Assembly: GCA_945869405.1 (NCBI GenBank)
Contig: CAMBPD010000002.1
Location: forward strand, 1-59,931
Direction: 5' to 3'
Origin: Chryseobacterium gleum
GTDB taxonomy: Bacteria; Bacteroidota; Bacteroidia; Flavobacteriales_D; Sanyastnellaceae
Length of the DNA stretch: 59,931 bases
Within the stretch, counting starts at the first letter, position 1. Each line of letters starts with the position of its first letter. Below, piece by piece: positions 44,447-51,121 of this stretch. The translations under genes and the position numbers were made by a program. The notes beneath the pieces are model-generated. The model was not told the DNA's origin and did no database searches. It saw only the letters and a program-made list of their open reading frames with translations.

Positions 44447-45688
44447 TTACTGCATGTTCTTCGCCTCGATGCTCAAGGTAGCGTGAGGAACCAAGCGCAG
44501 GCGCTCCTTGGGAATTAACTTACCCGTTACTCGGCACATGCCATAGGTCTTGTTCTTTATTCTCAGCAGCGCATTCTCGAGGTTTACAATAAACTTCTCT
44601 TGGCGTGCAGCCAACTGAGAGAGTTCTTCACGATTCATTGTCTCGCTGCCGTCTTCCATCATTTTAAATGTTGGGGCCGTATCGTCGGTTGAATTATCAC
44701 CATCATGCGAGAGTGATTGCTTCAACTCGTCCAAATCTGCCTTTGCAATCTTCAACTTATCGAGCACTAGAACTTCAAAATCTTTTAAATCTTTGTCTGA
44801 ATAACGTAAATCAATCATCCTCTTCTTTTCCTCCTCTTTTATCATTGGTGCAGCGACAACTGCGGGTTTAACTTCCTCCTTCTTTAGTGCGGGAGCTGGT
44901 GTAGGCTTTGGTGCTGGAGCTGGCTTGCTCACCACTGCAGGTTTCGCCGCTGGAATTGCCACAGGCTTTACTGCGGGTTTTACAACGGCCTTTGCAACAG
45001 GCTTAGCAACGACCTTCACTGTCGGTTTCACTGCCACCTTAACAACCTTCACCGGCACGATTTTCTTTGCAACCGTCTTTTTGACTATGCTCTTGGCCAC
45101 CGCTTTCGTTGGCTTCTTAGCACTGATTTTCTTGTTTGCTGGCTTACGAATTACCGCCTTCTTCGCAACAGGTCTTTTGGCAACCGCTTTTTTCGCAACA
45201 ACCTTCTTAGCAACAGCCTTCTTAGCAACAGCCTTCTTCGCAACAACCTTTTTCGCAACAACCTTTTTTGCAACAACCTTCTTCGCAACAACCTTTTTTG
45301 CAACAACCTTTTTCGCAACAACTTTTTTAGCCGCTACCTTTTTAGCTACTGGTTTCTTTGCAATTGGCTTGGCGACTTTCTTAACTGGCTTCGCACTCTT
45401 TTTTACTGGTTTAGCCGCTTTCTTCGGGGCAGCCTTTTTAGCGATTGGCTTTTTTGCCAAGGCCTTTTTAGCTACGACCTTAATCACCGGCTTGCCCGCT
45501 TTTTTCGGGGCAACCTTTTTCACTGCTTTAGCTACACTCTTTTTTGCCACTGGCGTCGCTGTTTTCTTGACAGGCTTTACCGGCTTTTTTGCTGGTGCAA
45601 CAGACTTCTTTACTGGCAATGCCTTAGCAGGAGCCTTTTTCACAGGCTTCTTAGGTGCAGGCTTTTTGGCTACTTTTTTTGCTGCCAT
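44447..45688 (-). CDS. DksA/TraR-like protein with long histone-H1-like Lys/Ala/Val/Pro N-terminal tail
   Basis: C-terminal part LRYSDKDLKDFEVLVLDKLKIAKADLDELKQSL...ALLRIKNKTYGMCRVTGKLIPKERLRLVPHATLSIEAKNMQ; N-terminal (K/A/V/P)n repeats; between lspA and ileS. Confidence 0.9.
   Translation of the reverse strand: MAAKKVAKKPAPKKPVKKAPAKALPVKKSVAPAKKPVKPVKKTATPVAKKSVAKAVKKVAPKKAGKPVIKVVAKKALAKKPIAKKAAPKKAAKPVKKSAKPVKKVAKPIAKKPVAKKVAAKKVVAKKVVAKKVVAKKVVAKKVVAKKVVAKKAVAKKAVAKKVVAKKAVAKRPVAKKAVIRKPANKKISAKKPTKAVAKSIVKKTVAKKIVPVKVVKVAVKPTVKVVAKPVAKAVVKPAVKPVAIPAAKPAVVSKPAPAPKPTPAPALKKEEVKPAVVAAPMIKEEEKKRMIDLRYSDKDLKDFEVLVLDKLKIAKADLDELKQSLSHDGDNSTDDTAPTFKMMEDGSETMNREELSQLAARQEKFIVNLENALLRIKNKTYGMCRVTGKLIPKERLRLVPHATLSIEAKNMQ
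45193..45335. repeat. Degenerate 15-bp tandem repeat encoding KKVVA/KKAVA
   Basis: Plus strand (TTCGCAACAACCTTT)n, about nine to ten copies, in frame with the DksA-like CDS on the minus strand. Confidence 0.9.
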
Positions 45689-45698
45689 GGTTGGTGTG

Positions 45699-48600
45699 TT
45701 AGTTTAGTTTGAAAAGTGCAATTTTTGTCGATTTACCTTCCTCAATTTCAACATCATATCCCTCATCAAGGGTTTCCATCAACTCAAGGGCCTCGGCCAA
45801 AATCTGAGTGCGAATATATTCTGAATTCGATGCCACCGCTTCACGAATTGCATCGCTTGTTATTATTTTCACGTTTATACGGTCAGTGACCTCAAAACCA
45901 GCCTCTTTGCGGAGATTTTGTACGCGATTTACTATCTCCCTAGCCACACCTTCGTTACGCAAGTCGTCGTCCAACATGATGTCGAGGGCCACCGTAAGAG
46001 GACCGTCGTTGGCCACCTTCCAACCCGGTATATCCACCGGTATAATTTCTACATCTTCCGAAACAAGCTCAATGGCTTCACCTTCGATAGAGAGTTCAAA
46101 TCGACCTTTTGTCTCTAAAGCGACAATAATCGCATCGGCCTGCTCCGCGGCAAAAGCCTGAACAGCCTTCATGTGCTTACCGCACTTCTTGCCCAGCGTT
46201 TTGAAGTTGAGTTTGAGGTTCTTCACAATACGTGCTTGCGATTCATCCACTAAATCCAAGTGCTTCACGTTGGTTTCGGCAAGTATGATGTCGGCCACAG
46301 CTTCAATGCGCTGCTGGTCTCGGTGCTGAAGCACAGGGATGCGGATGGCTCTTAACGGCTGGCGAACGCGCAGATTTTCCTTCTTCCGAATAGACAATAC
46401 CATGGAAGAAATCTTTTGTGCAAAATCCATTCGACTTTCCAACTCATCATCAATCTTCGACACATCGGCACGCACCAACAAGCTCAAATGGACCGACTCA
46501 TAATTCAACCCCATGTTTACCTGAGTTGCTTTCGTGCGGGCTGTTTCGGTAAGGTTTCGGTACAACCAATCCGAAAAGAAAGGTGCAAATGGCGACGCCA
46601 ATTGAGCTACAGTCACCAGGCACTCGTGCAGTGTCTGATAGGCCGCTTGCTTATCGGTGCTCAACTCTCCGTGCCAGAAACGCTTACGCGACAATCTCAC
46701 ATACCAATTGGATAGATGCGCATCCACAAACTCCTCTATTGCCCTGGCCGCAGTGGTCGGGTTGAAATCGTCGAGGTTCTCTGTAACCGTGCGCATCAGG
46801 TTATTGAGCTTGGATATAATCCAGCGATCCAGTTCGCTGCGGTCGCTGAGCGCTATAGTGTTGTTGCCATCAATTACGTAATGGTCGATATTGGCATAAA
46901 TGGCGAAGAAGCCATAGGTGTTGTATAGTGTACCAAAGAATTTTCGTTGGACCTCGGCAATGCCCTCTAGGTCAAACTTCAAATTATCCCAAGGCTGTGC
47001 ATTGGTAATCATATACCATCGTGTAGCATCAGGCCCGTACTTGGCCATGGTAGTAAATGGGTCAACCGCATTGCCCAAACGCTTCGACATCTTGTTGCCG
47101 TTTTTATCGAGCACCAAACCATTCGAAATAACATTTTTGTAGGCTACTGAATCAAAACACATGGTTGCGATTGCGTGCAGCGTGTAGAACCAACCGCGAG
47201 TTTGATCGACTCCTTCGGCGATATAATCAGCGGGGAAGGCTTTTCGTGTATCAATTAGTTCTTTGTTTTCGAATGGGTAGTGAAGCTGCGCATAGGGCAT
47301 TGCTCCGCTGTCGAACCATACATCGATTAGATCCGACTCGCGCTGCATTGGTTTTCCCGAAGGCGACACGAGCACTATTTCATCGGCATACGGCTTGTGC
47401 AAATCGAATTGATCGTAGTTGGCCTTGGTGTTGTCGCCAGGCATAAAACCCTTGAGCGGGTTTTCCGTCATTACACCTGCCCCTACACTCTTTTCAATTT
47501 CCAGCTTCAACTCCTCTGCGCTTCCCACGCACATCGTTTCTTCTCCATCGGCGGTGCGCCATATAGGCAGGGGAATTCCCCAAAAACGAGAGCGTGATAA
47601 GTTCCAATCGTTCGCGTTTTCCAGCCAATTGCCAAACCTGCCTGTACCGGTCGACTCGGGCTTCCAGTGAATGGAGTTGTTGAGCTCTACCATACGATCT
47701 CGAACCTGCGGAACCTTGATAAACCAAGAGTCGAGGGGGTAATACAAGATAGGCTTGTCGGTGCGCCAACAATGGGGGTAATTATGATCGTATTTTTCTT
47801 TCTTAAATAGTTTGTTTTCGTTTTGCAACTTCAGGCAGATGCGTTCGTCGACACTCAGATAATTCAACTTTGAGGTGTCTTTGATGAAGCCTCCTAAACT
47901 GGCTTTTTGACGTTCCAATTCAATGGCCTTCTCTGCTTCAGAACAATAATCTTCCTTCACATATTCCTCTCCATACAGAAATACCCCATCGCTCACCTGG
48001 GGCAAGAATCGACCTCGACGATCTACGAGCGTCAAGGAGTCAATCCCATTTTGTTTTGCTATACGAAAGTCATCGGCACCAAAAGAAGGCGCAATGTGTA
48101 CGATTCCTGTGCCGTCTTCGGTGGTCACAAAATCGCCAATGATCACCCGAAACGCATCACCTTCAGGCTGCACAAATGGCAACAATTGATGGTAGTGTGT
48201 GCCTTCCAAATCGGCTCCAGTGAAGGATGCGGCGACCTCGTAGGGCACTTGCTTATCGCCTAGCTTGTACTCTTCGAACTTCAATTCGTCTTGGGCAGTA
48301 TTGAAATACTTACTCATGAGTGCCTTGGCAAGCACAACTTGCACGAGGGCTCCAGAATAGTGGTTGATGGTTTTTACTAAAACATACTCAATGCTCTTTC
48401 CTACTGCAAGGGCGGTATTGCTTGGTAGTGTCCAGGGTGTAGTTGTCCAGGCAAGGATGAATGTTGGCAGACCAGATGCCTTAAGTTGCTGAAGTGGTGT
48501 TTCCTTCACTTCAAACATCGCTACCGCAGAGGTGTCCTTCACGTTCTTGTAACAGCCCGGCTGATTGATCTCATGCGAGCTGAGGCCCGTGCCTGCGGCC

Positions 48601-49154
48601 GGTGAAAAAGGTTGAATGGTGTAGCCCTTGTAAAGCAAGCCCTTGTTGAACATCTGCTGCAACAACCACCATACACTTTCAATGTATTTATTGTCGTAGG
48701 TTATGTAAGGGTCTGTCATGTCGACCCAATAGCCCATAACCCGAGTGAGCTCTTCCCACTTATCGGTATACTTCATCACCTCTCTTCTGCAAGCGAGGTT
48801 ATACTCTTCGACGGTAATTTTCTTACCAATATCTTCCTTGGTAATACCAAGAGTTTTTTCTACTGCAAGTTCGATGGGTAAACCATGAGTATCCCAGCCG
48901 GCCTTGCGCTTTACCTGCTTTCCATTGAGTGTTTGATAGCGACAGAAAATATCCTTGATGGTGCGCGCCATGACGTGGTGAATACCTGGCATGCCATTGG
49001 CACTCGGCGGACCTTCGTAAAACACAAAAGGATTGTCGGCACTGCGTTCATCGATGCTGCGCTGAAAAATGTGTTCTGATTCCCAAAAGGCACTCACTTC
49101 GTCGGCTATTGCCGGCAACTGAAGACCTTTGAATTCGCGATATACTTGAGCCAT
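45699..49154 (-). CDS. ileS: Isoleucyl-tRNA synthetase
   Basis: YEGPPSANGMPGIHHVMARTIKDIFCRYQTLNGKQVKRKAGWDTHGLP; NKMSKRLGN KMSKS motif. Confidence 0.98.
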   Translation of the reverse strand: MAQVYREFKGLQLPAIADEVSAFWESEHIFQRSIDERSADNPFVFYEGPPSANGMPGIHHVMARTIKDIFCRYQTLNGKQVKRKAGWDTHGLPIELAVEKTLGITKEDIGKKITVEEYNLACRREVMKYTDKWEELTRVMGYWVDMTDPYITYDNKYIESVWWLLQQMFNKGLLYKGYTIQPFSPAAGTGLSSHEINQPGCYKNVKDTSAVAMFEVKETPLQQLKASGLPTFILAWTTTPWTLPSNTALAVGKSIEYVLVKTINHYSGALVQVVLAKALMSKYFNTAQDELKFEEYKLGDKQVPYEVAASFTGADLEGTHYHQLLPFVQPEGDAFRVIIGDFVTTEDGTGIVHIAPSFGADDFRIAKQNGIDSLTLVDRRGRFLPQVSDGVFLYGEEYVKEDYCSEAEKAIELERQKASLGGFIKDTSKLNYLSVDERICLKLQNENKLFKKEKYDHNYPHCWRTDKPILYYPLDSWFIKVPQVRDRMVELNNSIHWKPESTGTGRFGNWLENANDWNLSRSRFWGIPLPIWRTADGEETMCVGSAEELKLEIEKSVGAGVMTENPLKGFMPGDNTKANYDQFDLHKPYADEIVLVSPSGKPMQRESDLIDVWFDSGAMPYAQLHYPFENKELIDTRKAFPADYIAEGVDQTRGWFYTLHAIATMCFDSVAYKNVISNGLVLDKNGNKMSKRLGNAVDPFTTMAKYGPDATRWYMITNAQPWDNLKFDLEGIAEVQRKFFGTLYNTYGFFAIYANIDHYVIDGNNTIALSDRSELDRWIISKLNNLMRTVTENLDDFNPTTAARAIEEFVDAHLSNWYVRLSRKRFWHGELSTDKQAAYQTLHECLVTVAQLASPFAPFFSDWLYRNLTETARTKATQVNMGLNYESVHLSLLVRADVSKIDDELESRMDFAQKISSMVLSIRKKENLRVRQPLRAIRIPVLQHRDQQRIEAVADIILAETNVKHLDLVDESQARIVKNLKLNFKTLGKKCGKHMKAVQAFAAEQADAIIVALETKGRFELSIEGEAIELVSEDVEIIPVDIPGWKVANDGPLTVALDIMLDDDLRNEGVAREIVNRVQNLRKEAGFEVTDRINVKIITSDAIREAVASNSEYIRTQILAEALELMETLDEGYDVEIEEGKSTKIALFKLN

Positions 49155-49192
49155 GATAGGGTATGGAAAGGTGCGCGAAGATAGGAAGAAAG

Positions 49193-49273
49193 GGTGAAGC
49201 GGTGAAGCAGTGAAGGAGTAAGCCCCTCGATACTATTTCACTATTTCACCCTCTCACCATTTCACCATTTCAC
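49193..49273. repeat. Inverted pair of tandem octamer arrays between pyk and ileS
   Basis: GGTGAAGC-GGTGAAGC-AGTGAAGG (49193-49216) and TATTTCAC-TATTTCAC-CCTCTCAC-CATTTCAC-CATTTCAC (49234-49273). Confidence 0.85.
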
Positions 49274-50691
49274 TAAACTTTAGATATCTTAATCATATTC
49301 GTCATGCCCTGCTCACTGATGGGCATTGAGGCCAGGTGAATGATGAATTCACCTTCATTGATGAGATTATTTTTCTTGAGGAAGAAGCGAATGTCGGCAA
49401 TGGTTTGGTCTGTGCTCACCATTTTATCGTAGTGAAAAGCGTGCACTCCCCACACCAAGCTCATCTGTGTAAGAATTTTTTTGTTGCTTGTGAAAACGAA
49501 AATATTCGCATTGGGTCTCCAACTCGAAATGCGGTAGCCTGTATATCCGCTAAACGACATGGTTACCAGCGCAGAGGCCTTTACACGAGCTGCTAATCGG
49601 CAGGCACTGTAACATACGCTGTCGGTCATAAAGCGACTGACGTCAATATCAGTTGGCATTTCTTCATTGTAATAAATGCCCCCGTAGGTCTCGGCTTCCG
49701 TGATGATGTTATTCATGATTCTGATGGCCTCTGAGGGATATTTTCCTACGGAGGTTTCGCCACTGAGCATCACCGCATCGGCGCCATCGAGCACTGCGTT
49801 GGCCACATCGGTAACCTCGGCACGGGTTGGGGTCATGTTTGTAATCATGCTCTCCATCATTTGAGTAGCTACGATTACCGGCTTAGCTGCCGCAACACAT
49901 TTTTTTACAATCTTCTTTTGGATGAGCGGTACTCGCTCTAGTGGTATTTCAACGCCTAGGTCGCCACGTGCAACCATCACTGCATCGGATTCGCGTATGA
50001 TGTCGTCTATCTGTTCAACGGCCTCAGGTTTTTCAATTTTGGCAACAACCTTCGCGTGCTTGTTTGAGCGCGCAATTATTTCTTTCAGTGCCACAACATC
50101 CGCTGCATTGCGAACAAAGGACAGACCTATCCAATCGACATCATTCTGCAAGGCAAATTCCAAATCCGACAAATCTTTCTCAGACAATGAAGGAAGAGAA
50201 ACCTTCGTGTTGGGCAGATTTAATCCCTTTTTCGACGAAAGCGGACCTCCTTGTACAATTAAACACTCAACAGTATCCAGGCCGTTGGTAGACAAAATAT
50301 TCATTGCTAGCTTGCCGTCGTCGAGCAGCACTCTTTCTCCAGCTTTTACATCTTGAGCAAACTCTTTGTAATTGGTATAAATAACCTTGTCGGTTCCTAT
50401 TTGCTTTGTGGTTGAGATGATGATTTTATTGCCCGCAACAATTTCCACGCAGCCATTTTCCATTTCACCCACGCGGAGTTTGGGGCCCTGCAAATCTGCC
50501 AGTATTGATGTGTTTATGCCTAGTTCCTTATTGATTTCACGAATGTTGTCGACTACCTTTTGATGGTCTTCATAGGAGCCATGCGAAAAGTTTAATCGGG
50601 CCACATCGAGGCCATTGAGGATCATCTGCTTGAGCACTTCTTTGGAGCTACTGCTCGGGCCTATGGTGGCCACTGTTTTTGTCTTGTTCAT
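49273..50691 (-). CDS. pyk: Pyruvate kinase
   Basis: KTVATIGPSSSSKEVLKQMILNGLDVARLNFSHGSYEDH; MVARGDLGVEIPLERVPLIQKKIV. Confidence 0.98.
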   Translation of the reverse strand: MNKTKTVATIGPSSSSKEVLKQMILNGLDVARLNFSHGSYEDHQKVVDNIREINKELGINTSILADLQGPKLRVGEMENGCVEIVAGNKIIISTTKQIGTDKVIYTNYKEFAQDVKAGERVLLDDGKLAMNILSTNGLDTVECLIVQGGPLSSKKGLNLPNTKVSLPSLSEKDLSDLEFALQNDVDWIGLSFVRNAADVVALKEIIARSNKHAKVVAKIEKPEAVEQIDDIIRESDAVMVARGDLGVEIPLERVPLIQKKIVKKCVAAAKPVIVATQMMESMITNMTPTRAEVTDVANAVLDGADAVMLSGETSVGKYPSEAIRIMNNIITEAETYGGIYYNEEMPTDIDVSRFMTDSVCYSACRLAARVKASALVTMSFSGYTGYRISSWRPNANIFVFTSNKKILTQMSLVWGVHAFHYDKMVSTDQTIADIRFFLKKNNLINEGEFIIHLASMPISEQGMTNMIKISKV

Positions 50692-50701
50692 GGGTAGAAT
50701 A

Positions 50702-51121
50702 TCACCTGTCTTCATCGAGCAGGTTACTTTTAAATTTTAGCTTGTCGACATTTTGCAACTGAAAAGCCAGGACAAGTTTGGTTTCTCGTAATTCGTTAAA
50801 AAGCGCCTCCATAGTCGACTCTGACGGCTGCTCGATTTTCAAAATATAATCGAACTGAGCCATGTCGGGCATGAATGTGCCTTCTGGTGTTTTATTATCG
50901 ATCAATGTGAACACGGTATGATCTACCGGGTGCACCCAACGAAACCTGGCATGCTGAGTGGTGGAGCGTTTTCCCTCGGCTACAGCATCTTGAATGCGCA
51001 CAAGGCGCCAACCCATTTGTTTGTTGAGCGACCAAGCCAAGCGATAGTCTTTTTCATGACTACTTACACCGATGATTTCGAAATCATATTCTTCTTCTAT
51101 TTCGAGGGTGTGAAAGGCCAC
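50702..51121 (-). CDS. IPExxxVDY family protein
   Basis: Small protein upstream of pyk: DFEIIGVSSHEKDYRLAWSLNKQMGWRL...FTLIDNKTPEGTFMPDMAQFDYILKIE. Confidence 0.75.
   Translation of the reverse strand: MAFHTLEIEEEYDFEIIGVSSHEKDYRLAWSLNKQMGWRLVRIQDAVAEGKRSTTQHARFRWVHPVDHTVFTLIDNKTPEGTFMPDMAQFDYILKIEQPSESTMEALFNELRETKLVLAFQLQNVDKLKFKSNLLDEDR

Follow-up and report, generated by a model that had tools for sequence, protein, structure and literature searches.

Inverted octamer arrays between pyk and ileS belong to a genus-restricted dispersed repeat and may serve as gene-end hairpins

The intergenic region between pyk and ileS carries a single copy of a dispersed repeat, restricted to the genus, that consists of GTGANNNN octamer arrays. 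With about even confidence, we read this copy as a putative hairpin terminator or insulator for pyk that lacks a U-tract and is built of a lineage-specific, slippage-prone dispersed repeat. The studied genome, a 2.64-Mb draft, is labeled G000 and its congeners G001–G007; a survey covered 100 relatives. The window is the whole 59,931-nucleotide stretch analyzed, and the features discussed below all lie on its minus strand:

49273..50715, minus strand: pyk, pyruvate kinase (ORF; NCBIfam TIGR01064, E 3e-166)
49273..49275, minus strand: pyk stop codon TAG, overlapped by the array (sequence, ORFs)
49234..49273, minus strand: 5' arm in the pyk-sense transcript, five GTGA octamers, GTGAAATG x2, GTGAGAGG, GTGAAATA x2 (sequence, TRF, family pattern)
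49217..49233, minus strand: 17-bp core, the loop (sequence)
49193..49216, minus strand: 3' arm, three opposite-sense octamers, CCTTCACT, GCTTCACC, GCTTCACC (sequence, TRF)
49174..49183, minus strand: TATCTTCGCG, candidate ileS -7 promoter box (motif enrichment, junction comparison)
45699..49154, minus strand: ileS, isoleucine--tRNA ligase (ORF; NCBIfam TIGR00392, E 9e-296)

Read on the minus strand from pyk, the TAG stop runs directly into TGAAATGG TGAAATGG TGAGAGGG TGAAATAG TGAAATAG, followed by the 17-nt core and three TTCAC-type octamers, with arms of 40 bp and 24 bp. An earlier note on this DNA had described five contiguous 8-bp units, and reading of the sequence together with TRF bore this out base for base. 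The last unit overlaps the stop codon as described, 49273 being the final base of TAG (minus strand 49275–49273) and the first base of the 5' arm being its G; the 17-bp spacer and the three opposite-sense units beyond it were likewise found as given. TRF called both arrays with period 8 (49193–49215 and 49235–49273). Between the proposed arms, 17 of 22 positions pair, or 19 of 22 counting G-U pairs, and RNA folding gave -40.4 kcal/mol against a shuffle mean of -27.5 (z about -3.8), in agreement with the suggested hairpin, which lies ~39 nt upstream of the ileS ATG. Part of the core, GGGGCTTACT / AGTAAGCCCC, extends into the 3' arm and recurs in the G001 and G005 orthologs of this element. No second array of the octamer kind was found in the window, the pyk–ileS copy being the sole one there. 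A 413-aa protein gene (window 44447–45688, minus strand) adjoins ileS; its product has a very long Lys/Ala/Val/Pro-rich repeat-built N-terminal tail (15-bp tandem array 45157–45343) and a C-terminal part that by eye resembles a DksA/TraR-type zinc-finger domain.

Searching the draft genome for GTGANNNNGTGANNNNGTGA returned 111 matches versus 5 for the reversed control pattern, and the congeners gave 167 (G001), 167 (G005), 87 (G006), 53 (G004), 32 (G007), 7 (G002), and 0 (G003); these counts include overlapping registers, and the loci number fewer. Octamer arrays were thus found in six of the seven congeners tested. Among the 100 relatives, those outside the genus had zero or few matches, of other spelling. 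The earlier note held that its idea would fall if the pattern were absent elsewhere in the genome and from related pyk–ileS regions; the arrays are present genome-wide and in the pyk–ileS region of congeners. Two-armed copies have a fixed polarity: the order GTGA arm, core, TCAC arm accounts for 98 pattern matches across six genomes, against 4 matches of the opposite order (TCAC before GTGA), all at one locus. Some arrays are single-armed, which we count against a terminator.

A second genus-wide family consists of TAGGATTG arrays (G007 108, G002 95, G004 80, G001 73, G006 32, G005 29, G000 10, G003 0), and G007, G000, and G006 carry further heptamer families with this shape, AATGACG and AGATGAC among them. 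Extra inverted heptamer arrays within the genus, of the ATGACNA, AGATGAC/ATCCGTC, and TAGTGAC types, show TGA-first polarity and lie at L251 (upstream of the HuH gene), L295, L298, L300, and L218:15697-15936.

The genomic placement of about 60 array loci was compared with a background of 400–458 kb, not selected for arrays, from each of two genomes. Genes were called by a simple codon-usage caller, with a called coding fraction of 75–80% and some genes missed. None of the arrays at these loci lay inside a called gene. Flanking gene pairs were convergent in 28 cases, co-directional in 22, and divergent in 3, compared with 77/321/81 in the background, showing enrichment of convergent pairs (P=1e-8) and depletion of divergent ones (P=0.03), and TAG made up 29/45 of the stop codons bordering arrays versus 97/498 generally (P=6e-10); these P values are optimistic because orthologous loci are non-independent. 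Arrays often begin within a TAG stop codon, and in many convergent pairs the element spans the gap from stop codon to stop codon. Each unit contains a TGA and its length, 8, is not divisible by 3, so that a gene end is faced by an arm with stops in every frame; we infer that this could help explain the fixed polarity. The three divergent loci, two of which (one ortholog pair) have the array between promoter-like boxes, also weigh against a terminator, which makes less sense there. At L145:2222-2309 and L174:2241-2320, the array of a divergent pair sits between two outward-facing -7-like boxes, an arrangement hard to square with a pure terminator.

The earlier note had placed the array as filling the ileS leader, with a regulatory role toward ileS. 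This part of its proposal was not supported, since a TATCTTCGCG box lies between the hairpin and the ATG and the arrays also occur at unrelated gene ends. In 8/8 junctions examined, the gap from pyk to ileS contains the box unchanged; here it stands 29 nt before the ATG. The motif TANNTT[TC]GC, which matches TATCTTCGCG, occurs within 70 nt upstream of 54/363 genes, most often at 25–29 nt, whereas antisense and coding sequence gave 6/363 and 1/363. This motif is close to the Bacteroidota -7 promoter consensus, TAnnTTTG. The conserved box and the upstream enrichment of the motif argue for an ileS promoter of its own 3' of the hairpin. Transcription of ileS most likely begins at this candidate promoter, downstream of the hairpin and with a short leader, so that the hairpin would belong to the pyk 3' region. 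An attenuator-like or riboswitch-like leader regulating ileS would fit the position of the hairpin ~39 nt 5' of the ATG, but we regard it as very improbable: besides the -7-like box on the wrong side of the hairpin, arrays of the same kind stand at the ends of unrelated genes, including convergent ends with no downstream start, the hairpin sequence is swapped between species, and the junctions of other genera (G016, SZUA-1298) retain the promoter box without such a hairpin. Rfam gave no match at the gathering threshold over the whole window, consistent with the earlier statements that the feature fits no family known to the note's author and does not look like a T-box. A regulatory leader of ileS, T-box included, was set aside because a candidate promoter lies 3' of the hairpin and because arrays occur at so many unrelated loci.

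The relation of the arrays to canonical terminators was evaluated at convergent junctions. The genus does use stem-T-tract terminators, which were present in 10/15 convergent 40–300 bp junctions without octamer arrays, whereas 16/20 convergent junctions of that size with GTGA arrays had none (Fisher P=0.013; small sample, simple terminator scan). This inverse distribution is what substitution of one for the other would look like. The remaining 4/20 array junctions also bear a canonical terminator, which we count against the terminator reading. At pyk, a stable hairpin follows soon after the stop codon and no U-run lies directly 3' of it, which makes it, as first noted, something other than a textbook intrinsic terminator. 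The same is true of most array hairpins: a T-run of 4 or more was found at only 8/78 arm ends, again a point against termination. A terminator role has been suggested in other bacteria for hairpins without U-tracts, including hairpin clusters (PMC8355165). The array hairpins resemble these in being stable, close to stop codons, and in the place of stem-U-tract terminators; they differ in their repeat-built arms and repeat-family turnover.

Comparison of the same junction across congeners revealed that the repeat family is replaced while the hairpin is kept. In six species, the pyk–ileS gap forms a strong hairpin from three kinds of unit, namely the octamer GTGARNNR, the octamer TAGGATTG, and the heptamer GGGGTGA. 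GTGA octamers occupy the gap in G000, G001, and G005 (fold z -3.7, -6.2, and -6.2), a different octamer, AGGATNNN / ATCCTNNN, in G004 (z -3.2), and GGGGTGA-type heptamers in G007 and G006 (z -8.8 and -3.1). The pyk stop codon tracks the repeat family, being TAG with octamers and TAA with heptamers. In two other lineages, G016 and the Flavobacteriales MAG SZUA-1298, ~30 nt separate the pyk stop from the promoter box, which is kept, and folding gave no notable hairpin. A second junction, between a dnaJ-like gene and a 2-oxoacid dehydrogenase E2-like gene (both identified by eye from sequence), carries GTGA octamers in G005 and TAGGATTG octamers in G006. The named pyk neighbors in GTDB genomes reach at most 62% identity at pyk, and no GTGA octamer array was seen after pyk in them. 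One of them, the unrelated Bacteroidetes MAG L051, has inverted 7-mer-like repeats (TTAGTTATTGG / CTAATAACGAACAACTAA) directly 3' of pyk.

We regard this wholesale replacement of both arms as stronger evidence for the structure than covariation at the level of units. The covariation check proposed in the earlier note gave a weak signal in place of the strong one expected: arms match unit by unit slightly better within an element than when swapped between elements (19.3 vs 18.5, P=0.03), and variable positions in register gave P=0.04. We therefore do not claim strong compensatory evolution at the single-unit level, as the excess over arm swaps is slight, and we count this weakness, like the one-armed copies, against a terminator. 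Precise arm pairing would not seem to be strongly selected, because unit covariation is weak and the conserved GTGA/TCAC alone yields most of the pairing.

Orthologous elements vary in unit number and unit spelling, and their cores are mostly dissimilar between loci yet recognizable between orthologs. At the purH junction, the core GGTATGTTGGCGCACACC of G000 is the exact reverse complement of GGTGTGCGCCAACATACC in G007, with the flanks co-oriented. A second core is inverted between G001 and G005, at 93% reverse complement and again in co-oriented flanks. In both cases the inversion could be an artefact of short reads misassembled across the inverted arms. In G005, the same core recurs at a second locus as an ectopic copy. 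The inverted and copied cores suggest that arms recombine or switch templates with each other, and sometimes with other loci. Transposition of whole elements as the main route was set aside as unlikely, the cores being locus-specific with this one exception.

A gene-end terminator or insulator would work as follows. During transcription of pyk, the 5' arm would supply stop codons just beyond the gene, and the arms would fold into a long hairpin that may end or protect the pyk mRNA and shield the downstream ileS promoter from pyk transcription. Because it is symmetric, the hairpin would work in both directions, in keeping with the bias of the arrays toward convergent pairs. In the DNA itself, arrays would gain or lose units by slippage, and arms may recombine or template-switch with each other, inverting the core, and occasionally exchange with other copies, copying the core. 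Through exchange and slippage, one repeat family could therefore replace another with the hairpin kept. Both the role in termination or insulation and the copying mechanism are what we infer from these patterns. If this reading is right, part of the Bacteroidota ends transcription with fast-turnover repeat hairpins in place of the stem-U-tract, and terminator predictors would miss them. The array loci would offer natural tests of selection on hairpin shape under wholesale sequence replacement and of hairpin-mediated inversion in bacterial chromosomes, and they would be hypervariable markers and break points in metagenome assembly.

The main rival is neutral or selfish expansion of simple sequence, which we hold to be quite possible though short of even. 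Here, slippage and ectopic conversion would carry octamers into whatever intergenic space is dispensable, and the hairpin would be a by-product of arm copying with no role in expression. The free variation in unit number among orthologs, the weak unit-level covariation, the sharp differences in family abundance between species (G003 does without arrays), the exact filling of the space from stop codon to promoter box, and the core copied to a second locus are all in keeping with it. Neutral filling alone would not predict the fixed polarity (98 vs 4), the convergent enrichment, the TAG bias, the inverse relation to canonical terminators, or retention of the hairpin across a change of unit family, but inter-arm copying could account for some of these patterns.

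Another rival is a REP/REPIN-type element whose mobility depends on a HuH (Y1) transposase. All seven array-bearing genomes have a divergent HuH gene in single copy, with no relative found in G003, and arrays adjoin this gene in G006 and G007. However, co-occurrence is confounded by phylogeny, and no arrays of the tested kinds flank the gene in G000, G001, G004, or G005. Its motif Y---Q--[HY]H resembles subclass 1.2, whose members are generally without typical IS200-like terminal structures (PMC6006769). The arrays are dispersed, intergenic, and hairpin-forming like REP, BIME, and REPIN palindromes, in which the spacers of paired copies may vary (PMC3733652, PMC3116915). Unlike a copied REP palindrome, they consist of tandem GTGANNNN units with mostly locus-specific cores, their arms being tandem arrays with no palindromic body tagged GTAG or CGTC, and RAYT linkage is not consistent. 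We therefore consider this origin improbable, and a REP/RAYT assignment was set aside after serious consideration on the inconsistent HuH flanking, the tandem units, and the locus-specific cores. The HuH gene remains a lead. Its loci are L239, L240, L245, L246, L247, L248, and L251, with a transporter gene adjacent in several genomes; in G002, another heptamer tract lies at its stop.

Beyond the genus, a detector of inverted tandem 6–10-mers gave about 3–7 arrays per Mb in other Bacteroidota samples, compared with 27 per Mb in G007; the reverse-sequence control gave 0–3 per set, which matched the real count for G006 and the family samples and exceeded that of the order sample, and the named-genome set had 3 versus 0 in the control. 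These arrays use other units, such as TTACGAA in a Cyclobacteriaceae MAG, and their breadth outside the genus is provisional. A bolder generalization, which we find rather doubtful, is that Bacteroidota might carry widespread self-renewing gene-end hairpins made of 7- or 8-mers in inverted tandem arrays; the unit would be replaced from time to time and the loop flipped by hairpin-templated arm copying, with selection keeping polarity and shape as a stop-codon-rich bidirectional terminator.

Several known systems share parts of this behavior. Chloroplast intergenic DNA shows small inversions in hairpin loops between inverted arms, and the cores described here likewise flip between relatives with inverted arms flanking; we know of no chloroplast inversion arms that belong to dispersed tandem-repeat families. 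TAACTGA heptamer direct repeats are found in intergenic regions of Beggiatoaceae, Cyanobacteria, and some Bacteroidetes and give stops in all three frames (MacGregor 2015, PMC4679880). The octamer elements resemble these and the cyanobacterial STRR in their short tandem units at many intergenic sites, patchy distribution among lineages, and all-frame stops, and other heptamers of this kind are nearby in Bacteroidetes. The TAACTGA repeats, however, are mostly direct and just upstream of start codons, with one inverted repeat among 170 sets (PMC4679880), whereas the elements here are inverted pairs at gene 3' ends with units of 8 and not 7; 7-mers do occupy pyk–ileS in G006 and G007. The open-licence literature searched gave no account of inverted octamer arrays from this phylum. 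A Nostoc heptamer hairpin, as summarized in PMC3488679 citing Costa et al. 2002, has short tandem repeats in both arms that fold into a hairpin, varies in copy number, and shows two repeat classes at the same site. It concerns one intron site with 7-mers in cyanobacteria, whereas the octamer elements occupy dozens of intergenic gene-end sites with mostly 8-mers and core inversion in a Flavobacteriales-like genus. Related heptamer repeats and the Nostoc heptamer hairpins were thus already known, and the octamer element is a variant of that kind.
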